Source: Sediminibacterium goheungense (GTDB lineage Bacteria; Bacteroidota; Bacteroidia; Chitinophagales; Chitinophagaceae). Taken from it: a stretch of 64,000 nt of DNA. Shown here in pieces: positions 3,092-63,928 of the stretch (positions are counted from its first letter, which is position 1; the number at the start of each line of letters is the position of its first letter). Below the pieces are notes generated by a model. It was given only the letters and a program-made list of their open reading frames with translations, had not been told where the DNA came from and searched no databases. The position numbers and the translations under genes were made by a program. The DNA is taken from assembly GCF_004361915.1 (NCBI RefSeq), contig NZ_SNWP01000010.1:310001-374000 (forward strand), in the 5' to 3' direction.

Positions 3092-3289
3092 ATGGCAACT
3101 GCAAAAAAAGCTGCTAAGAAAGCTGCACCAAAGAAAGCCGCTAAGAAAGCTGCTCCTAAAAAAGCTGCAAAGAAAGCTGCTCCTAAAAAGGCTGCAAAGA
3201 AAGCTGCTCCTAAAAAAGCCGCTAAAAAAGCTGCTCCTAAAAAAGCTGCTAAAAAAGCTGCTCCTAAGAAAGCTGCTAAAAAGAAGTAA
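3092..3289 (+). CDS. Histone-H1-like lysine/alanine-rich repeat protein
   Basis: A 65-residue protein built almost only of Lys, Ala and Pro: MATAK, then six perfect copies of KAAKKAAPK, then KAAKKK. This resembles the C-terminal tail of eukaryotic histone H1 and the Hc1/AlgP-type tails of some bacteria, which bind DNA through charge. A nucleoid-associated role is inferred, not shown. It has no folded domain. The underlying DNA is a 27-bp tandem repeat, so copy number may vary between strains. It sits between rpmA and a strong terminator. The same KKAAPKKAA pattern forms the tail of topoisomerase I at the far end of the window. Confidence 0.8.
   Translation: MATAKKAAKKAAPKKAAKKAAPKKAAKKAAPKKAAKKAAPKKAAKKAAPKKAAKKAAPKKAAKKK
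3107..3268 (+). repeat. 27-bp coding tandem repeat, six copies
   Basis: Six consecutive 27-bp units each encode KAAKKAAPK. The protein repeat is perfect, while synonymous third positions differ between units (AAA/AAG, GCT/GCC/GCA), so the array is not a very recent amplification. Confidence 0.9.
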
Positions 3290-12101: not shown

Positions 12102-12120
12102 GATGAATGGGGGGAAGAAA

Positions 12121-12189
12121 GTGAGTAGTCAGTAGTGAGTAAAAAGATCTAACTCCATAAGTTAACTACTGACTACTCACTACTCACTA
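12121..12189. repeat. Heptad palindrome A (GTSAGTA words)
   Basis: Left: three consecutive 7-base words of the form GTSAGTA (12121-12141). Right: words of the form ACTACTS (12165-12185), the reverse complement. The arms form a perfect 16-bp stem (12121-12136 with 12165-12180). It lies between the smc stop and the start of the next minus-strand gene, with no T-run. Confidence 0.85.
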
Positions 12190-17047: not shown

Positions 17048-18177
17048 TGGAAAAACATCTTCACATTATTTCTTATACCGTTCCCTTTCCCGTGAACCAG
17101 GGAGGTATCTATGATGTTTTCTATAAGCTGAAGGCATTACATGCACAGGGTATTCATATTCACCTGCATTGTTTTGACTATGGCCGGGGCGAACAACCTG
17201 AGTTAAATCAGTATTGCAGTTCGGTTTATTATTATCAGCGTTTTACAGGGCATAAAGGTATTTCTACCTCTCTGCCCTATATCGTTGCATCCAGAAAAAA
17301 TGAAGAACTGTTACAAAACCTCTTAAAAGATCAGTACCCGATTTTGATGGAAGGCGTACATAGCACTTACCCCATTATGGATGAGCGTTTTAAAAACCGG
17401 GGACTTTTTGTAAGACTTCATAATGTAGAATATCAGTATTACCAGGAACTCTGTCAGCATGCCGGTTCAGCATTCAGGAAACTTTATTATAAAAGAGAAA
17501 GCCTCATGCTGAAAGCCTATGAAAGAAAAATTGCCTCCAAAGGTATTTTCTGGGGTATGACGGAGGCTGATGATGAAGTATATAGAAAGGAACTTGGCGC
17601 TGATATAGAACACTTACCTCTTTATATTCCCGATAACTGGGTAATAGAAGAAAAAAAGGGCATGGGTACTTATTGTCTTTATCATGGCGACCTAAGTGTT
17701 GATACGAATGAAAAAGCTGCCACCTGGTTACTGGAGAAAGTTTTCAGCAAGGCGCAAATTCCATTTGTGATTGCCGGGCAAAATCCATCCCGAAAGCTGG
17801 AAGAACTGGCCCACAGTATGGGACACACCTGTTTGGTTGCCAACCCTTCAGAAAGAGAAATGCAGGATATGATTGCCAAAGCGCAGGTTAATATTTTACC
17901 GTCTTATACAAATACAGGTATTAAAATAAAACTGGTAAATGCCATTTTTAATGGCAGACACTGTCTCGTAAACAAAGCCACGGTTAACCATTCCGGTCTT
18001 GAGCCAGTCTGTCATGTTGCTGAAAGCGCCGATGAATTTATTACGCAAACAGAAAGTCTGTTCTCTACTCCTTTCAGCAAAGAAGCGACTGCACTAAGAA
18101 AAGATATTACATCCCGCCTTTTTAATAATGAAAGAAATGCCAGGAAACAGGTGGGGTGGATTTGGGGGAATACCTAA
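17047..18177 (+). CDS. Glycosyltransferase, GT4-like
   Basis: 376 residues, second of a coupled pair. N-terminal features: SYTVPFPVNQGGIYDVFYKLKAL, with the glycine loop that opens many GT-B enzymes, and VRLHNVEYQYYQEL. The C-terminal domain has CLYHGDLSVDTNEKAATWL, FVIAGQNPSRKL and ILPSYTNTGIKIKLVNAIFNGRHCLVN, the last matching the donor-binding loop of family GT4. No signal peptide or membrane helix, so cytoplasmic. Substrates unknown. It ends exactly at an 8-base-period palindrome (18176-18203) and faces the FtsE-like gene. Confidence 0.82.
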   Translation: MEKHLHIISYTVPFPVNQGGIYDVFYKLKALHAQGIHIHLHCFDYGRGEQPELNQYCSSVYYYQRFTGHKGISTSLPYIVASRKNEELLQNLLKDQYPILMEGVHSTYPIMDERFKNRGLFVRLHNVEYQYYQELCQHAGSAFRKLYYKRESLMLKAYERKIASKGIFWGMTEADDEVYRKELGADIEHLPLYIPDNWVIEEKKGMGTYCLYHGDLSVDTNEKAATWLLEKVFSKAQIPFVIAGQNPSRKLEELAHSMGHTCLVANPSEREMQDMIAKAQVNILPSYTNTGIKIKLVNAIFNGRHCLVNKATVNHSGLEPVCHVAESADEFITQTESLFSTPFSKEATALRKDITSRLFNNERNARKQVGWIWGNT

Positions 18178-18209
18178 TTTTCAAATTTGGAAATTTGAAA
18201 ATTTGAAGA
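18176..18209. repeat. Octad palindrome F (AAATTTGR words)
   Basis: A 13-bp perfect inverted repeat with a 2-base loop (18176-18188 with 18191-18203), built of 8-base units AAATTTGR. It begins inside the stop codon of the second glycosyltransferase, between convergent genes. The rest of the gap to 18303 holds a direct repeat of ATTGGGGTTA (18245 and 18269) and nothing else recognised. Confidence 0.8.
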
Positions 18210-18302
18210 TGAGGGAATGTCTTTCAAGTTCGGTCACTAAAAGTATTGGGGTTACGCTAATAAAGAGAATTGGGGTTATCTGATTTCTGCTATTGAATGG
18301 GT

Positions 18303-20235: not shown

Positions 20236-20240
20236 TGCGA

Positions 20241-20275
20241 ATTTGAAAATTTGGAAATTTGGAAATTTGGAAATG
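20241..20275. repeat. Octad tandem repeat E in the purM leader
   Basis: Four 8-base units, one ATTTGAAA and three ATTTGGAA, stand between the purM promoter box and its ATG, so on the minus strand they form part of the mRNA leader. This is the same word as in elements F and G, here without an inverted partner. Confidence 0.85.
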
Positions 20276-20409: not shown

Positions 20410-21342
20410 ATGAAAGTACATCGTGAGCTGGCGGGTTCCTTACCTGAATTTAGAAATGCAGTGATTACCATTGGTACTTTTGATGGTGTACACAAAGGAC
20501 ACCAGCAGATATTAAGCCAGTTAAAAGAAGAAGCAACCAAAATAGGTGGAGAAACGGTTATTGTTACTTTTCATCCCCATCCACGTAAAATTGTTTCTTC
20601 GGTTCCGGGTGACGTTAAGCTACTGAATACCCAGGCTGAAAAAAAATTTCTTTTGGAGAAGGCGGGTATTGATCATTTAGTAGTAGTACCATTTGACCAC
20701 CATTTTGCCAATCAGTCTGCCGAAGAATACATTGTCGATTTTTTATATAAATACTTCAACCCTCATACCATCATTATCGGCTACGACCATCGGTTTGGTA
20801 AAGGCAGAACAGGTGATTATCATTTGCTGGAAAAATATGGTCAGGAACTTGGGTTTGCCGTAAAAGAAATTCCGGAGCAACTCTTACATGAGATTGCCGT
20901 TAGTTCTACAAGGATCAGAAAGGCCATTATTGAAAATGATATTGCTACAGCCAATGCAGCACTGGGCTATCCATATTTTTTTGAAGGTCTGGTGGTGGAA
21001 GGTAATCAGCTCGGACGCACCATTGGTTACCCTACTGCCAATCTTCATATTGGGAGCGAGGAAAAACTCATCCCAGGAAATGGCGTATATGCGGTACAGG
21101 TTCAAATAACAGATAAAACCTATGGTGGCATGATGAATATTGGATTACGCCCCACTGTAGACGGTAAAAAAAGAGTAATTGAGGTAAATATCTTTGATTT
21201 TAACGACAATATCTACGGCGAACAGCTACGTATCCATGTACGGCAACAGTTAAGAAACGAAATTAAATTCGACGGGCTGGAAGCGCTAAAAGCACAACTA
21301 GGCAGGGATAAAGCCGATGCAGTTGCTTTACTGAGACTGTGA
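20410..21342 (+). CDS. ribF: Bifunctional riboflavin kinase / FAD synthetase
   Basis: 310 residues, the usual RibF length. The N-terminal nucleotidyltransferase domain has GTFDGVHKGHQ (adenylylation site), FHPHPRK and IGYDHRFGKGRTGDY, then SSTRIRKAI. The C-terminal kinase domain has GRTIGYPTANLHI, GNGVYAV and NIGLRPTVDG. It phosphorylates riboflavin to FMN, then adenylylates FMN to FAD in the cytoplasm. It is a single gene divergent from purM and convergent with holA. Its stop codon is embedded in the first word of palindrome B. Confidence 0.95.
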   Translation: MKVHRELAGSLPEFRNAVITIGTFDGVHKGHQQILSQLKEEATKIGGETVIVTFHPHPRKIVSSVPGDVKLLNTQAEKKFLLEKAGIDHLVVVPFDHHFANQSAEEYIVDFLYKYFNPHTIIIGYDHRFGKGRTGDYHLLEKYGQELGFAVKEIPEQLLHEIAVSSTRIRKAIIENDIATANAALGYPYFFEGLVVEGNQLGRTIGYPTANLHIGSEEKLIPGNGVYAVQVQITDKTYGGMMNIGLRPTVDGKKRVIEVNIFDFNDNIYGEQLRIHVRQQLRNEIKFDGLEALKAQLGRDKADAVALLRL

Positions 21343-21400
21343 GTGAGTAGTGAGTGGTTTTCTTTACTCAGTACTCACTACTGACTACTCACTACTGACT
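21339..21400. repeat. Heptad palindrome B (TACTSAS words)
   Basis: The right side has five consecutive 7-base words TACTSAS (21365-21399). The left side has GTGAGTA and GTGAGTG (21344-21357), the reverse-complement motif, giving stems of about 10-12 bp in alternative registers. It fills the gap between the convergent genes ribF and holA and uses the same word as element A. Confidence 0.88.
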
Positions 21401-21403
21401 CTA

Positions 21404-23297: not shown

Positions 23298-24272
23298 ATG
23301 AGTAGCTTCAACACACCAGATCCAAACGCTGCACCACAGCAAAAAGACAACCGTAAAGTAATATACGGTATCCTGATTTTCGCCCTTCTCGGTACATGGG
23401 CCTATATATTCTACGATAAGAGTCAGACCAAAGAAACCATTGGTCAATTGGAAACAAAAATTACCAATGTTGACAGTGCCCGTAATGCTATTCAGCAGGA
23501 GTTTCTGGAAGTATCTGCTAAAGCAGATTCACTTACCCAGAATAATATCCAGCTACAGGGAGCTTTGGCAGACCGTGGTTCTGAAATCCAGAAAATGAAA
23601 AGCAGCATCAGCAATATTTTAAAACGCAAGAATGCTTCTGATGCTGAATTGGCTCAGGCCAAACAAATGATCAGCGAACTGAATGGCAAGATCGACGGAC
23701 TCTTTGCAGAAATCGAGAAACTGCAGGGGGAGAATAAGCAGCTTACAGCTGCTAATGAACAACTGAATACAGAAAAAACACAGTTAACTTCTGATAAAGA
23801 GAACCTTCAGCAGAACCTTACGGCTACTAAAAAAGAGCTGGATGAAAAAGTGGACGTAGCTTCTACGCTTCATGCTTCCAATATTGGCATCACTGCCATT
23901 GATGTACGCAACGGTGGTAAAGAGAAAGCAACCACCACTTCAAAACGCGCAGACCTGATGCGCATTTCATTTGTTCTTGACCCTAACCGTATTGCCCCAA
24001 GTGGTAGTAAAGACATATATGTTTGTGTAACTGCGCCAGACGGAAAAGTAATTTCTGAGGGTGCAAGATTTGTAACCCGCGAAGAAGGTGAAAAAGCCTA
24101 TACCAGCAAGGTAACTGTTAACTATGAGCAGGGCAAAGTAACACCGGTAAGCTTCGACTGGAAACAGTCTGATAAATACCAGACAGGCAATTATAAAATT
24201 GAGATCTATAATAATGGTTTCAAAATTGGCGAAGGTGTAAAAACACTGAAGAAAGGCGGCTTATTCAGCTAA
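23298..24272 (+). CDS. Membrane-anchored coiled-coil protein
   Basis: 324 residues. A short Pro/Gln-rich N-terminus precedes one membrane helix (about 20-39, VIYGILIFALLGTWAYIFYD), then about 150 residues of heptad-type coiled coil rich in Gln, Lys, Glu and Asn (45-195). The C-terminal domain of about 125 residues (NIGITAIDVRNGGKEK ... FKIGEGVKTLKKGGLF) is predicted beta-rich and faces the periplasm if the helix is an uncleaved anchor. I do not recognise the family. It is followed by a strong terminator, so it is a single-gene unit. Confidence 0.75.
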   Translation: MSSFNTPDPNAAPQQKDNRKVIYGILIFALLGTWAYIFYDKSQTKETIGQLETKITNVDSARNAIQQEFLEVSAKADSLTQNNIQLQGALADRGSEIQKMKSSISNILKRKNASDAELAQAKQMISELNGKIDGLFAEIEKLQGENKQLTAANEQLNTEKTQLTSDKENLQQNLTATKKELDEKVDVASTLHASNIGITAIDVRNGGKEKATTTSKRADLMRISFVLDPNRIAPSGSKDIYVCVTAPDGKVISEGARFVTREEGEKAYTSKVTVNYEQGKVTPVSFDWKQSDKYQTGNYKIEIYNNGFKIGEGVKTLKKGGLFS

Positions 24273-24310: not shown

Positions 24311-24335
24311 AAGGGCTCCGCAAGGGGCCCTTTTT
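24311..24335 (+). terminator. Intrinsic terminator with GCAA tetraloop
   Basis: A 9-bp stem (AAGGGCTCC with GGGGCCCTT, one G-T pair) is closed by a GNRA-type GCAA loop and followed by TTTTT. It lies 38 bases after the coiled-coil gene stop and directly before palindrome C. Confidence 0.92.
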
Positions 24336-24424
24336 GTGAATGGTGAATGGTCAATGGTGAATAGTTTTTTATGGTATTTTTTTCGACTATCCATATTGAC
24401 AATTCACCATTGACCATTCACCAT
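24336..24424. repeat. Heptad palindrome C (GTSAATG words), 23-bp perfect arms
   Basis: Left: four 7-base words GTSAATR (24336-24363). Right: four words TTSACMA (24396-24423). Arms 24340-24362 and 24402-24424 are perfectly complementary over 23 bp with a 39-base loop. It starts exactly at the end of the terminator T-run and lies upstream of the histidine kinase start at 24461. Confidence 0.95.
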
Positions 24425-24460
24425 CCCTCCTTTTCCTTATCTTCAACACAAAAATCATCC

Positions 24461-25612
24461 ATGCGCATAAACTGGCGGATCATATTGGTTGCTATCGCCA
24501 TCATATTGGTGAGCGGTACCATTTTTTATTCGCAGTATGTTGCAGGTAAAATTGCCACAGAAGAAAGAAAATATGTGACTGTTTGGGCCGAGGCCCAGCG
24601 AACCATTTTAAACACGCCAGACACTGCCAGCCTGAACCTGGCTACATTTATTTCTTTTGAAAACAAAGAAATACCCATTCTTGAAACCACTGAAAAAGAT
24701 AGTATTACAGGAAATTACCTGAATCTCGACAGTAGTTTAGTGGAATCTGATCCAGGTTATTTACAAAAAAAACTACATGAATTTAGGCGGTATAATAATA
24801 AACCAATTGTACTCGTAATTAAGGACAGCCCATACACAGCCAATCATTATTATTACGGACAAAGCAAGCTATTGAAAGAGGTAAAATTATACCCGCTGAT
24901 ACAACTGGTTATCGTTGCTCTTTTTATCGCCATTGCTATCATGGCTGTACAGTCACATTACCGGGGTGCACAAAATCAATTATGGGCCTCTATGGCGAGA
25001 GAAACCGCACACCAGTTGGGCACACCAGTTTCCAGTCTCGAAGGGTGGCTGGAAATATTAAAGCAAAAAAAAGAAAATGAAGCCATTATTCCAGAAATAA
25101 CAAAAGATGTTAACCGCCTGTTATTGATCACAGATCGTTTTGGGAAAATAGGAAGTCAACCGAAACTTGAACCAGGGAATCCCTATGATCAGATTGAGCA
25201 AATGATCCTTTACATGAAAAAACGTTCCGGCGCGCAGGTACAGTTCGAATTTTCGCCGGAACCGCTATCAGTTAATCCTTTACTGAGCGCCCCCTTGTTT
25301 GACTGGGTGATAGAAAACCTGATAAAAAATGCATTGGATGCAATGGAGGGAAAAGGCTTGATCCGTATCGAATCTCATATTACCAATGACGGATTGATAA
25401 TTGATGTAACGGATAGCGGAAAAGGCATTCAAAGTACTCATTTAAATAAAGTTTTTAAACCCGGCTTTACCACCAAAAAAAGAGGATGGGGTCTTGGCTT
25501 GCCTTTGAGTAAACGCATCATGGAAGAGTACCACAATGGCAAATTGTTTGTAAAATGGAGCGAACACGGCAAGGGTACCTGTTTCCGGATCATTCTGCCT
25601 CTTCCAGGATAG
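24461..25612 (+). CDS. Sensor histidine kinase of the HQLGTP type
   Basis: 383 residues. Two membrane helices (about 7-24 and 145-165) enclose a periplasmic sensor domain. The kinase core has the H-box ETAHQLGTPVSSLEGW (His184), a variant typical of Bacteroidota, then the N-box ENLIKNALDAMEG, DSGKGI and the glycine-rich GWGLGLPLSKRI. It should autophosphorylate on His184; no response regulator is adjacent. I choose ATG 24461: the longer frame from 24371 would translate the right arm of palindrome C. The 3' end overlaps the convergent small gene by 23 bases. Confidence 0.88.
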   Translation: MRINWRIILVAIAIILVSGTIFYSQYVAGKIATEERKYVTVWAEAQRTILNTPDTASLNLATFISFENKEIPILETTEKDSITGNYLNLDSSLVESDPGYLQKKLHEFRRYNNKPIVLVIKDSPYTANHYYYGQSKLLKEVKLYPLIQLVIVALFIAIAIMAVQSHYRGAQNQLWASMARETAHQLGTPVSSLEGWLEILKQKKENEAIIPEITKDVNRLLLITDRFGKIGSQPKLEPGNPYDQIEQMILYMKKRSGAQVQFEFSPEPLSVNPLLSAPLFDWVIENLIKNALDAMEGKGLIRIESHITNDGLIIDVTDSGKGIQSTHLNKVFKPGFTTKKRGWGLGLPLSKRIMEEYHNGKLFVKWSEHGKGTCFRIILPLPG

Positions 25613-28359: not shown

Positions 28360-28488
28360 TATAGCTTATGGGGTATAGCTGCTAGTAAATAGCAGATAGT
28401 TCATGGGTAATAGTCTTTGATCTGGGACAGGAATATTATGCGCTCCCTCGATCAACCATTAGCCATGAACTATTTGCCATAAGCTTAC
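28360..28488. repeat. Heptad palindrome H (NATAGNN / CCATNNN words)
   Basis: Left: eight consecutive 7-base words around an ATAG or ATGG core (28360-28415). Right: four words CCATTAG to CCATAAG (28456-28483). Two nested stems pair the sides: AGCTTATGG 28363-28371 with 28477-28485, and an 11-bp stem 28396-28406 with 28463-28473. It fills the gap between convergent genes and touches the stop codon of the minus-strand gene. Confidence 0.88.
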
Positions 28489-53475: not shown

Positions 53476-53609
53476 AGTCCGTAAGACAGAAGACCGAAAG
53501 TCCGTAAATGGAAAAATGAATAAATTACTAGTTATAACAGATTCACAGACCCTTTGTTCCCGAACGAATCATCTCGCGGTCTTTCGGTCTTCCGGCTTTC
53601 GGACTTTCC
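53476..53609. repeat. Palindrome I (AGWCCGNA words, period 7-8)
   Basis: Left arm 53476-53504 and right arm 53577-53605 (29 bases each) are complementary with about five mismatches and a 72-base loop. Each arm is built of 7-8-base words around AGTCCG or AGACCG. It lies between the lipA start and the end of the next minus-strand gene. Confidence 0.78.
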
Positions 53610-54897: not shown

Positions 54898-54904
54898 CAT
54901 ACGA

Positions 54905-54984
54905 TCTCAGATGTAAGACGGCAGATGTAAGATTTGATGTATGTTCTCTTACATCTGCCATCTGATATCTGCCATCTTACATCC
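54905..54984. repeat. Heptad palindrome J (AGATGTA / NNNATCT words)
   Basis: Left: 7-base words AGATGTA, AGACGGC, AGATGTA (54909-54929) and two weaker ones. Right: five words of the form NNNATCY (54950-54984). A 17-bp stem with one G-T pair joins 54916-54932 and 54947-54963. It fills the gap between convergent genes OsmC and DUF2851. Confidence 0.9.
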
Positions 54985-56318: not shown

Positions 56319-56906
56319 TCAGGAATGCAATGCCTGTAGCGCTTTTACTACCCTGCTAACGGGCAATCCCATTACATTATAAAAATCACCTTTAACAGAC
56401 TGAATACCCACCACTCCGATCCATTCCTGTATGGCATAAGCACCAGCTTTATCGTAGGGATGGTATTTATCTACATAAAAACTTATCTGCTCATCGGTAA
56501 GTGAATAAAACTGCACTTCGGTGATATCAGCAAATTGAACAACGATTTCTCCTGATAATATCACAACACCCGTTATTACCTGATGCACCTGCCCGGACAG
56601 TTTTTTCAAGATAGTTATTGCATGATCCCTGTCATTCGGCTTGCCAATGATTTCTCCATTTAGCACTACTACGGTATCCGCAGCCAGAATGGGTCTCCCT
56701 GCATATTGGTCATCCCCTGTTTGCTGTATGTGGTTGCGCACTGTTACTGCTTTTTCTTTTGCAATAAAGATGGGAACTTCTTCAATAGGAAGTTCAGCAG
56801 GAAATGATTCATCGGTTGGTTTTACCACAATTTCAAATGAAAGCTCTGCCCATTCAAGCAGCATTTTTCGGCGCGGCGATTGAGAAGCCAGGATGATGGG
56901 GATCAT
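56319..56906 (-). CDS. maf: Maf-family nucleotide pyrophosphatase
   Basis: 195 residues. Maf proteins hydrolyse non-canonical or modified NTPs (dTTP/UTP or m7GTP types). Motifs: IILASQSPRRKMLL (3-16), ILAADTVVVLNG, TGVVILSGE and YDKAGAYAIQ. The start is ATG 56906. A frame continuing upstream to a TTG would translate the TCAAAAA array into five extra residues and is rejected. The 7-base tandem array begins 1 base before the ATG and therefore fills the leader. The stop codon lies in a 5-bp CCTGA/TCAGG hairpin. Confidence 0.93.
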   Translation of the reverse strand: MIPIILASQSPRRKMLLEWAELSFEIVVKPTDESFPAELPIEEVPIFIAKEKAVTVRNHIQQTGDDQYAGRPILAADTVVVLNGEIIGKPNDRDHAITILKKLSGQVHQVITGVVILSGEIVVQFADITEVQFYSLTDEQISFYVDKYHPYDKAGAYAIQEWIGVVGIQSVKGDFYNVMGLPVSRVVKALQALHS

Positions 56907-56998
56907 AAAATCAAAAATCAAAAATCAAAAATCAAAAATCAAAAATCAAAAATCAAAAATCAAAAATCAAAAATCAAAAATCAAAAATCAAAAATCAA
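56907..56998. repeat. Tandem heptad array D (TCAAAAA)
   Basis: Thirteen TC dinucleotides at exact 7-base spacing from 56911 to 56995, about 13 copies of TCAAAAA with no mismatch. On the minus strand this is TTTTTGA repeated, directly upstream of maf, and supplies a TTTG every 7 bases. Copy number is likely unstable. Confidence 0.97.
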
Positions 56999-61351: not shown

Positions 61352-63928
61352 ATGGCAAAGAATTTATTGATAGTTGAGTCTCCGGCAAAAGCCAAAACAA
61401 TTGAAAAGATCCTGGGAAGCGATTTCGAGGTTAAGAGTTGTTATGGGCATATCCGTGATCTGGAAAAAGATGATATGGGTATTGATGTAAACAATCAGTA
61501 CCAGCCCCGTTATATTGTACCGGACGATAAGGAAAGAGTGGTTAAAGAACTGCGTCAGTTAGCCAAAAAAGCGGATGAAGTATGGCTTGCATCGGATGAG
61601 GACCGTGAAGGAGAAAGCATCAGCTGGCACCTGTCAGAAGTATTGGGTCTGGATCCAAAAACCACCAAAAGAATTGTTTTTCATGAGATTACAGCTCCGG
61701 CCATTAAAAAAGCCGTTGCACAACCCAGGCTCATTAATATGAACCTTGTAAATGCCCAACAGGCCCGCAGGGTTTTGGACAGACTGGTAGGCTTTGAATT
61801 GAGTCCGGTTTTATGGCGAAAAATCGGCATGCAACGAAGTCTGAGTGCCGGAAGGGTTCAGAGCGTAGCTGTTAGACTGATTGTTGAACGTGAACGCGAG
61901 ATCAATCATTTTATCCCGGAAAGCAGTTATAAGATAGAGGCTCTTTTTGCAGCCAAAGACATTCATAACAGGGCTGTATCCTTTAAGGCTGAGGGTCCCT
62001 CCAAACTGAATACCCAGGAAGCAGCTGCTAGCTTTTTAAACAGCTGTAAAAACGCTGCTTATAAAGTACTGGATGTAACGGTGAAACCTGCCAAACGTTC
62101 TCCGGCAGCCCCCTTTACCACTTCTACCCTTCAACAGGAAGCTTCCCGTAAACTGGGTTATGGTGTAAGCAAAACCATGTTACTGGCGCAAAAACTATAC
62201 GAAAGTGGTAAGATCACTTATATGCGTACAGACAGTATTAACCTGAGTGATACTGCCATGGCCGATATTCGTAAAGAAATAGATAGCAGTTACGGTAACA
62301 ATTATTACCAGCCACGCAAATACAAAAACAAGAATGAGAGTGCCCAGGAAGCGCACGAAGCAATACGTCCTACTTATATGAATAACCGGACGGTGGCCGA
62401 TGAAGATACCCGCAAACTATATGAACTGATCTGGAGAAGAACCATTGCCTCTCAAATGAGCGACGCTGAGTTTGAGAAAACAGTGGCTAAAATTGATATC
62501 TCCACCAATAAAGAAACCCTTACGGCTACCGGAGAAGTCATGAAGTTTGATGGATTTCTGAAAGTATACCTCGAAGGAAAAGATGAGGAAGATGAAGAAG
62601 ACAATGAAGGTATGCTGCCTCCGTTATCAGCCGGTCAGGTGCTCGATTTCAGGGAAATGATGGCGACTGAAAAATTTACCCGTGCTGCACCAAGATACAC
62701 GGAAGCATCATTGGTAAAAAAGCTGGAAGAACTGGGTATCGGTCGTCCTTCGACCTATGCTCCTACTATTTCAACTATTATCAAAAGAAATTATGTTGAA
62801 AAGCGTGATAAAGAAGGTACCAAAAGACAGGTAAATATTTTACGCCTCAATGCCCAACAGGAGGTTTCGAAGGAAATACTCACTGAAAATACCGGTGCTG
62901 AAAAAGCCAAACTATTCCCTACCGATCTTGGTATGGTGGTAACGGATTTTTTAAAACAACATTTCAGCAAGGTGATGGATTTTGGCTTTACTGCCCGTAT
63001 CGAGGAAGAGTTTGATGAGATTGCCGAAGGAAAGACCCGCTGGAGCAGTATGATCGATCAATTTTACAAACCTTTTCACGAAAATATTGAGCATACCCTT
63101 GAAAATGCAGAAAGAGCAAAAGGCGAAAGAGAACTGGGCATAGATGAGGCCTCCGGCAAAAAAGTTATTGCCAGAATGGGTCGTTATGGTCCAATGGTAC
63201 AGATCGGGCATGTTGAAGATGAGGAGAAACCAAGATTTGCTAAACTCAAAGCAGATCAAAGTATTGAAACCATCACCATGGAAGAAGCCATGGAACTCTT
63301 TGCCCTGCCCCGTGTACTGGGTACGTATGAGGATCAGGAATTATCTGTGAATGTGGGTCGTTTTGGCCCCTATATCAAGCTGGGTGATCAGTTTATATCT
63401 ATCCCAAAAGGTGAAGACCTGCATACTATAGAACTGGACCGCGCCATTGAATTATTACAGGAGAAGCAACAGGCTGATGCACCGGTTGCTTTTTATAATG
63501 AGTTACCTGTAACAAAGGGTAAAGGACGTTTCGGACCATTTATTAAATGGAACGATATGTTTATCAATATTCCAAGGGCCTATAATTTTGATACACTTTC
63601 TCAACAGGACATCAATGAGTTGATTGAAAAGAAAATGGAGAAAGAAGCTAATCGTTTTATCAAACAATGGCCTGCTGAAAAAATCAATATTGAAAATGGC
63701 CGATGGGGCCCTTTTATCCGCTTCAACAAAAAAATGCTGAAGATGGGCCGTAAGGCCGATGGGGGTAAGTACACGGCTGAAGAGCTTACAGATATTGATA
63801 TTGAACTGGTAAAAAAGATGATTGAAGAGCAGGTGCCCAATGCATTCGCCAAAAAAACAAAAGCGCCGGCCAAAAAAGCGGCTACTAAAAAAGCTGCCCC
63901 TAAAAAAGCCGCAGCTAAAAAGAAATAA
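61352..63928 (+). CDS. topA: DNA topoisomerase I
   Basis: 858 residues. Type IA topoisomerase that relaxes negative supercoils. Toprim motif SDEDREGE (81-88) follows IVESPAKAKTIEKIL (7-21); the catalytic Tyr290 is in ITYMRTDS. The C-terminal part has no zinc fingers but several repeat-type domains marked by MGRYGPMVQIG, VGRFGPYIKLG, KGRFGPFIKW and NGRWGPFIRF (about 610-820), as in Bacteroidota. It ends in a Lys/Ala-rich tail of about 25 residues (KAPAKKAATKKAAPKKAA...) like the repeat protein at 3092, probably a nonspecific DNA grip. Followed by a strong terminator. Confidence 0.96.
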   Translation: MAKNLLIVESPAKAKTIEKILGSDFEVKSCYGHIRDLEKDDMGIDVNNQYQPRYIVPDDKERVVKELRQLAKKADEVWLASDEDREGESISWHLSEVLGLDPKTTKRIVFHEITAPAIKKAVAQPRLINMNLVNAQQARRVLDRLVGFELSPVLWRKIGMQRSLSAGRVQSVAVRLIVEREREINHFIPESSYKIEALFAAKDIHNRAVSFKAEGPSKLNTQEAAASFLNSCKNAAYKVLDVTVKPAKRSPAAPFTTSTLQQEASRKLGYGVSKTMLLAQKLYESGKITYMRTDSINLSDTAMADIRKEIDSSYGNNYYQPRKYKNKNESAQEAHEAIRPTYMNNRTVADEDTRKLYELIWRRTIASQMSDAEFEKTVAKIDISTNKETLTATGEVMKFDGFLKVYLEGKDEEDEEDNEGMLPPLSAGQVLDFREMMATEKFTRAAPRYTEASLVKKLEELGIGRPSTYAPTISTIIKRNYVEKRDKEGTKRQVNILRLNAQQEVSKEILTENTGAEKAKLFPTDLGMVVTDFLKQHFSKVMDFGFTARIEEEFDEIAEGKTRWSSMIDQFYKPFHENIEHTLENAERAKGERELGIDEASGKKVIARMGRYGPMVQIGHVEDEEKPRFAKLKADQSIETITMEEAMELFALPRVLGTYEDQELSVNVGRFGPYIKLGDQFISIPKGEDLHTIELDRAIELLQEKQQADAPVAFYNELPVTKGKGRFGPFIKWNDMFINIPRAYNFDTLSQQDINELIEKKMEKEANRFIKQWPAEKINIENGRWGPFIRFNKKMLKMGRKADGGKYTAEELTDIDIELVKKMIEEQVPNAFAKKTKAPAKKAATKKAAPKKAAAKKK

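Follow-up and report, generated by a model that had tools for sequence, protein, structure and literature searches.

What does a long palindrome built of seven-nucleotide words do in a spacer that already contains a terminator? The question is raised by nucleotides 24336-24424 of the window, the whole stretch of 64,000 nucleotides of Sediminibacterium goheungense DNA analysed here. The original prediction had described at this place perfect 23-bp arms around a 39-nt loop, with four heptads on each side, directly behind an intrinsic terminator. The sequence and a repeat finder both bear out the arms (24340-24362 and 24402-24424, with 39 nt between them), which reach 26 nt if one mismatch is allowed (24340-24365 and 24399-24424). 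The left arm reads GTGAATG, GTGAATG, GTCAATG and GTGAATA (24336-24363), the right arm TTGACAA, TTCACCA, TTGACCA and TTCACCA (24396-24423), and the head-to-tail arrangement of 7-nt units is that of a heptanucleotide tandem repeat (STRR / LSSR). The RNA fold of the element has a predicted energy of -44.9 kcal/mol compared with -17.5 +/- 2.7 in 200 shuffles (z -10.2).

The position behind the terminator is equally plain. The first word abuts the last T (24335) of AAGGGCTCC-GCAA-GGGGCCCTT-TTT, a terminator at whose place orthologues also form a stem, with changed bases, and which is absent from the consensus-scan listing. It had been argued that termination does not explain the element, and for this copy we agree: a normal terminator precedes it and is also present in relatives without the element. 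Behind the right arm comes CCCTCCTTTTCC; the layout of an intrinsic terminator, a GC-rich stem with a T run immediately after it, is not found here, and the consensus scan does not list the element. The right-hand end lies 36 nt upstream of the start codon of a histidine kinase gene (Table 1). No Rfam family reaches its gathering score between 24200 and 24500, where 18 sub-threshold hairpin-like hits were obtained; with this result and a location between two protein genes, the element does not belong to a group I intron. Among 72,556 plasmid records, no match to the element was found.

Table 1. The element, its neighbours and further hairpins of the same class in the window
Feature	Position	Strand	Remarks
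Upstream gene, coiled-coil protein	23298..24272	+	best Pfam ZapB, 34.3 bits, cut-off 31.5
Intrinsic terminator of upstream gene	24311..24335	+	stem AAGGGCTCC / GGGGCCCTT, loop GCAA, T run; read from sequence
Left arm, four GTSAATR heptads	24336..24363	+	perfectly paired stretch 24340-24362
Loop, T-rich, 39 nt	24363..24401		repeat finder and fold
Right arm, four ATTSACM heptads	24395..24424	+	perfectly paired stretch 24402-24424
TATCTTCA at right-hand border of the slot	24438..24445	+	present in own genome and L236-L241
Downstream gene, histidine kinase	24461..25612	+	HATPase_c above its cut-off; HisKA under it
Other member, GTSAGTA heptads, hairpin	12120..12188		in the window
Other member, GTSAGTA heptads, hairpin	21341..21401		under thresholds of the 400-kb survey
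Other member, ATAGNNN-type heptads, hairpin	28389..28480		absent from 400-kb survey list
Other member, AGTCCGN words of 7-8 nt, hairpin	53476..53605		in the window
Other member, CAGATGTAAGACGG words, hairpin	54900..54983		AGCTTGT words at the same slot of the sister

Different words at the same slot

We compared 30 loci, all readable between the two flanking genes (L numbers denote loci, G numbers genomes). The same genomes apparently stand under two handles in two cases (G060/G496 and G061/G487), so that L236 repeats L009 and L239 repeats L010. A clearly periodic stretch is present in this spacer at 14 of the 30 loci (at most 1 of 100 shuffles as good) and absent from the other 16. GTSAATG words occupy the slot in our genome, L236 and L237. 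Here the two arms vary together, which the original prediction had put forward as its check: one pair of the stem shared by these three species is G-C in one, A-T in another and C-G in the third. That the arms were recently copied from one another, as had been proposed from their perfect match, is one possible reading of such arms; selection for pairing would look alike.

Elsewhere the slot contains GTGAAAN words (L239, L240 and L241), ATRGYCN words (L238), direct arrays with CACTCATT octads (L246, L247 and L253) or GTTTCTC heptads in 38-nt arms (L258). In several congeners nothing lies between terminator and start region, and in G010 and similar species the start region follows the terminator at once. 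Word labels on the tree were set by eye: L242 and L244 are labelled as having none despite a periodic stretch, L254 is labelled with a word despite a non-significant period, and L237 was omitted as too short. Two distant relatives (L011 and L012) carry another palindrome-like insert, of the GTCACTCTGAGGCTCTCGAAGAGTG type, behind the same terminator and between the flanking genes.

Both flanks of L238 are 0.83-0.90 identical to those of L239, L240 and L241, whereas the elements between them are 0.61-0.63 identical, which is the shuffled value (mean 0.62). As the elements are unalike between flanks that are alike, the whole element was replaced in one of the two lineages; L238 is the clearest case of this. 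L239 and L240 keep 0.95 of the aligned element bases, though the kinase gene is equally diverged (0.833 against 0.835). Words are also gained or lost by a 7-nt step: the elements of L240 and L241 measure 81 and 74 nt. In the periodicity scan, the best stretch of L238 lies upstream of the terminator and outside the element, and the comparison of L235 with L236 was left out because the L235 element split came out at 3 nt.

The location ahead of the kinase gene suggests a regulatory DNA or RNA site, an operator or attenuator of this gene. Between the right arm and TATCTTCA are 13 nt, and a further 15 nt separate TATCTTCA from the start codon. This motif also occurs in L236-L241; we take it to resemble the Bacteroidota -7 box, a putative assignment. 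However, near relatives hold different words at the slot, several congeners hold nothing, and other members of the class described below are found mostly at 3' ends, and we regard kinase regulation as highly improbable. For a promoter role, reading of the slot's 30 loci gave no constant -33 spacing.

A genome-wide class of hairpins behind stop codons

The original prediction overlooked that the element belongs to a genome-wide class, whose members lie mostly behind stop codons. With our own script (arms of at least 16 nt, 85% pairing, loops of 5-110 nt) we surveyed 400 kb of the own contig, window included, taking longest-ATG ORFs as genes. The survey gave 32 hairpins, 29 of them with a period (20 of 7 nt and 9 of 8 nt), compared with no hairpin (arm of at least 16, loop of at least 5) in five order-1 resamples of the same 400 kb. 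The element occupies one of these intergenic hairpin slots, which are spread genome-wide and number 29 in the sampled 400 kb.

The sister species G060, the nearest one found, has 50 hairpins in 400 kb, 33 with a 7- or 8-nt period. In 200 kb each, from stretches picked on contigs with listed hits, 14 of 19 hairpins are periodic in G443 and 14 of 20 in G352, a member of another genus, with partly different words in both. No 7- or 8-periodic hairpin was found in 200 kb each of G010 (0 of 4, one having period 11) and G017 (0 of 0). The 978 kb of loci L011-L118 contain 19 hairpins, five with period 7 or 8 and one with period 11. Judging by these counts, such hairpins abound in some of the surveyed lineages but are rare or lacking in others close to them.

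A stop codon faces 25 of the 29 own elements at a distance of at most 35 nt (median 8 nt), compared with 21.8% of random intergenic placements. Hairpins were found in 13 of 58 convergent gene pairs, in 7 of 98 and 6 of 101 tandem pairs and in 2 of 58 divergent pairs. A convergent and post-stop preference is described for bacterial stem-loops generally in the accessible part of PMC1590033. The copy at 24336-24424, between a terminator and a start codon, is atypical of the class.

This distribution could reflect selected bidirectional terminators, with a sequence free to drift while the stem stays. Both stop codons lie at most 20 nt from the hairpin in 11 of the 13 convergent members, leaving no room for another terminator, and the hairpins persist in the sister species. 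However, a T-rich stretch (at least 5 T in 8 nt behind the stem, either strand) accompanies only 4 of the 13 convergent hairpins, and predicted hairpin energies vary widely between the species (-51.1 against -16.6 in one case). A canonical terminator already precedes the window copy, three orthologous convergent gaps of 10-19 nt in G010 are without a hairpin, and drift cannot produce words that are shared between slots. We therefore consider selected terminators to be very unlikely.

Grouped by eye, the words fall into families that include GTSAGTA, GTSAATG, GATGTCA, ATAGTCC, AATAAGA, AAGTCAA, AGCTTGT and AATATTG and the octads AGTCCGGA, AATTTGGA and TTTGATTT; AGTGAGT is the commonest word in the class. 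Slot pairs with at least four common 12-mers number 43 in the own genome, where most fall into a single cluster of nine, and 39 in the sister; one random intergenic draw for each gave 0 and 1, respectively. Composite elements, with one word outside another, are found at 506785 and 477287 in the own genome and at 92978 in G352. Two candidate reasons behind the words were rejected. Stop codons in all six frames occur in 14 of the 29 elements of the own genome and in 18 of the 33 of the sister; as shuffling predicts 10.4 and 10.7, the excess is weak. A core common to all heptads reaches 4.79 bits (40 permutations: mean 4.17, maximum 4.63), again a weak signal.

The window and the surveyed stretches contain further repeats. 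A direct array of the ATCAAAA heptad with 13.7 copies extends over 56902-56998, with no complementary arm in the repeat listing. Octad repeats of AAATTTGA and AATTTGGA are located at 18173-18214 and 20240-20274, and this 8-nt word family also occurs elsewhere in the genome. Tandem repeats of 27 and 15 nt (AAAAAAGCTGCT... and AAAAAAGCCGCAACT) at 3104-3283 and 63872-63921 possibly belong to a lysine/alanine-rich protein tail. The contig of the window (L193, G000:C1:1-84) starts within a direct (GTCAATG)n array, where the assembly seems to break. The G352 stretches L225-L234 contain long hairpins of ACACAGAG octads and CTTTGTGCC nonads, plus a separate repeat family, CTGTGCGAGACCTCTGGTCTCGCAC.

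Word abundance and dispersal

Word matches were counted on both strands, with at most 40 scored candidates per genome. GTSAATG gives at least 107 matches in the own genome, at least 61 in G060, at least 32 in G061 and 3 in G033, and none in six further genomes among the matches listed. GTGAAAN is found at least 86 times in G487, 82 in G486, 75 in G482, 14 in G496 and 10 in G515 (all lower bounds) and not in the own genome. For ATRGYCN the counts are at least 25 in G482, at least 16 in G515, at least 13 in G486, at least 10 in G487 and at least 6 in G496; one query gave 0 in the own genome, which does hold ATAG-type words (window 28389-28480 and 506785). The ATRGYCN words of L238 are not special to its genome, and in each of four genomes the word at this slot is the commoner one of GTGAAAN and ATRGYCN. 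An entire word set can be replaced by a family that is also found elsewhere in the same genome.

At the level of the phylum, three consecutive GTSARTR words are found in 45 of 395 genomes. This survey says little outside a few genomes, because a reversed control pattern likewise hits 45. At least 20 hits above control were obtained for the own genome (299+347 vs 0), G352 (95+89 vs 4), G443 (54+67 vs 18), G116 (44 vs 0) and G313 (24 vs 0).

The element itself has at least 107 BLAST matches in the own genome, with 40 scored out of 141 candidates, at fewer places than that since both strands are counted; dispersal over many places of one genome is again a property of STRR / LSSR repeats. Verbatim repetition of the 89 bases at many loci had been named as the mark of an ordinary REP/MITE. 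The full 89 bases are not repeated: among the matches listed, only the locus itself is full length at 100%, and those that span the greater part of the query reach 71-78% identity. Stretches about as long as an arm (27-31 nt), however, recur at 100% in ten of the listed matches. A REP is a single conserved palindrome of 20-40 bp with a high copy number.

Ordinary miniature mobile palindromes (REP/REPIN or MITE type) could have been moved by a RAYT or some other transposase into an ancestral genome, with decay of the copies afterwards. Such palindromes would be dispersed, intergenic and palindromic with lineage-specific copy number, as observed, and would fit the verbatim arm pieces and the outgroup slots without an element. 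One Y1_Tnp gene above cut-off is present in each of G000 (the own genome), G060, G061, G010 and G035. Against mobility, slots are mostly common to the own and the sister species while words differ, where active transposition should give many species-specific sites. In addition, other, REP-like palindromes stand beside the gene at four of the five RAYT loci and none at the fifth (L160), the heptad or octad hairpins of three loci (L162-L164) are about 1-1.4 kb away from the RAYT, and G010 has a RAYT, yet no 7- or 8-periodic hairpin in 200 kb. The RAYT gene is not flanked by the same repeats as the element. Mobile palindromes appear quite unlikely to us. RAYT as the mover was rejected as not likely, with Y1_Tnp above cut-off in 5 of 10 genomes searched and other palindromes at 4 of 5 loci.

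The Y1_Tnp (RAYT) loci L161-L164 carry REP-like palindromes of their own (CCTCAGGCTGAAGCCTGAGG, CCGGACTGAAGTCCGG and similar). A separate candidate, loss of the hairpin nuclease SbcCD, was rejected: none of 14 genomes has a hit above the curated cut-off of the SbcD model, and heptad-rich genomes are not set apart from the others by it.

Slots in the sister species

At fourfold-degenerate sites, the own and the sister species G060 are 0.444 identical (33,004 sites in 254 reciprocal best pairs). With an identity of only 0.444, arms that are not maintained should have decayed. By both flanks, 28 of the 29 own slots can be anchored in the sister. A loose search finds hairpins in 27 of these 28 anchored slots compared with 278 of 1000 random sister spacers, a strict search in 18 of 28 compared with 72 of 1000. 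At the 28th slot, where the loose search finds no hairpin, words are still visible by reading. Read in this way, the sister slots carry words or a hairpin, slot 368920 only in weakly word-like form. In the opposite direction, 23 of 33 sister slots are anchored in the own genome; 16 contain strict hairpins, 6 more contain words by reading and 1 contains an ordinary terminator. The comparison demonstrates that slots with palindromes of 7- or 8-nt words are inherited together with their gene neighbours and that the hairpin is usually still present in the sister.

The same arm is 0.729/0.743 identical between the two species over 27 slots (shuffled 0.42). Judged by eye, the word family has changed at 7 of 28 slots (246741, 271996, 364908, 442434, 489027, 490265 and 506785 in the own genome). 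The arm complementarity of 0.95 in slots carries no weight because the finder gives 0.956 for hairpins in random spacers. A column-wise count of pairs between the two species gave 406 unchanged, 25 compensatory, 15 one-sided, 65 broken and 125 gapped pairs; in repeats, a gapped alignment can shift by entire words, which may account for some of the 65. With slots that keep hairpins far above random spacers while their arms diverge, co-variation of arms throughout the genome is suggested indirectly.

A purely local process could in principle renew each hairpin in place, by 7-nt slippage and quasi-palindrome correction and with no exchange between slots. The 7-nt difference between L240 and L241, the three-way pair (G-C, A-T and C-G) at the window slot and the weak common word core (4.79 bits; permutation maximum 4.63) are all in line with it. 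Such a process leaves unexplained that the same words are present at separate slots of one genome, that dominant words differ by lineage and that the L238 element is cleanly replaced between intact flanks. On balance, local renewal seems unlikely to us.

A proposed scheme of inherited slots with exchangeable words

Our tentative preference, close to an even call, is for inherited intergenic hairpin slots in which resident words are overwritten by others from the library of the same genome; both the function and the copying mechanism in this scheme are what we infer. The hairpin would be part of transcripts, either at mRNA 3' ends or within spacers, and would work as a structure and not as a sequence, possibly as a barrier to 3' exonucleases or to read-through. 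Such a barrier has been proposed for REP sequences. The arms would stay matched via hairpin-templated repair (quasi-palindrome correction), selection for pairing or both, and slippage would alter the number of words. New words may be copied in from other slots by template switching of the nascent strand between heptad arrays, a step suggested by word sharing. Alternatively, a new hairpin may be inserted into the loop of an old one, which the composite elements (506785 and 477287 in the own genome, 92978 in G352) would fit. Words common in a lineage would then overwrite resident ones, largely without creating new slots.

The broken pairs (65) outnumber the compensatory ones (25), which speaks against the preferred scheme. 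So do the ATRGYCN counts outside the genome of L238, the convergent and post-stop preference of bacterial stem-loops at large, and the atypical position of the window copy. The function, if any, is probably that of an RNA stem-loop at 3' ends. It cannot be general or essential, because G010 and G017 are without periodic hairpins and convergent gaps of G010 are hairpin-free. Since congeners exist without the hairpins, an origin that is largely selfish or mutational is just as plausible.

Relation to described repeats

The comparisons with cited work below refer to the accessible parts of the respective papers. The closest described parallel is the heptanucleotide P6b stem-loop of the group I intron in the trnL (tRNA-Leu UAA) gene of Nostoc, with repeats of Class I (TDNGATT) and Class II (NNTGAGT) (PMC4476775, PMC3488679). 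There, one class is reported to have replaced the other several times independently, while the structure stayed similar (PMC4476775). As in P6b, a single stem is formed here by degenerate 7-nt words on both arms, words come and go in a 7-nt step, and the word class is swapped at the same site with structure kept; AGTGAGT, our commonest word, fits the Class II motif NNTGAGT. In contrast to P6b, which as described is a single cyanobacterial intron site with two classes, we find many intergenic slots in Bacteroidota, a library of heptads and octads, and no intron.

TAACTGA heptamer repeats are described for Beggiatoaceae, Cyanobacteria and five Bacteroidetes (PMC4679880). They share with our class the mostly intergenic 7-nt words, some intergenic regions containing several heptamers, the sporadic distribution and indels between related strains that are mostly 7-nt steps (PMC4679880). 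Unlike our class, they are mostly direct, with one indirect repeat in the Guaymas genome, and mostly located just upstream of start codons (PMC4679880), whereas the repeats described here are palindromes, lie mostly behind stop codons and show word replacement at slots. Long simple sequence repeats (LSSR; Mrazek et al. 2007 as cited in PMC4679880) likewise have tandem 7-nt units and are patchy among genomes; that citation mentions neither a complementary second arm nor slot conservation.

REP/BIME sequences with RAYT are likewise intergenic palindromes present in many copies, most of them located downstream of genes and in the gaps of unidirectional or convergent gene pairs (PMC3733652). Most REPs, as described in that text, bear a GTAG or CGTC tag (PMC3733652), whereas our arms consist of 7-mers in tandem that belong to several word families, and in 24336-24424, the element read for this purpose, no such tag is found at the stem foot. 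Among open-licence PubMed Central titles and abstracts we found none that describes, for Bacteroidota, heptad hairpins spread over a genome whose words are replaced at fixed slots, and a query with the element's words returned one unrelated paper.

Beyond the preferred scheme, we consider a bolder idea possible, though doubtful: the 7-8 nt words may be self-spreading hairpin DNA that overwrites resident hairpins at inherited slots by copy-in, with no need for new insertion sites. Positions would then behave like genes and words like competing replicators. If true, position and sequence of a repeat would follow different inheritance, slots being transmitted vertically and words by spread within the genome. 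The 7-nt repeats of cyanobacteria and Bacteroidota would also gain a testable model, one that extends to the class replacements of the Nostoc trnL intron, and the many natural replacements that preserve structure could be used to probe the function of 3'-end hairpins.
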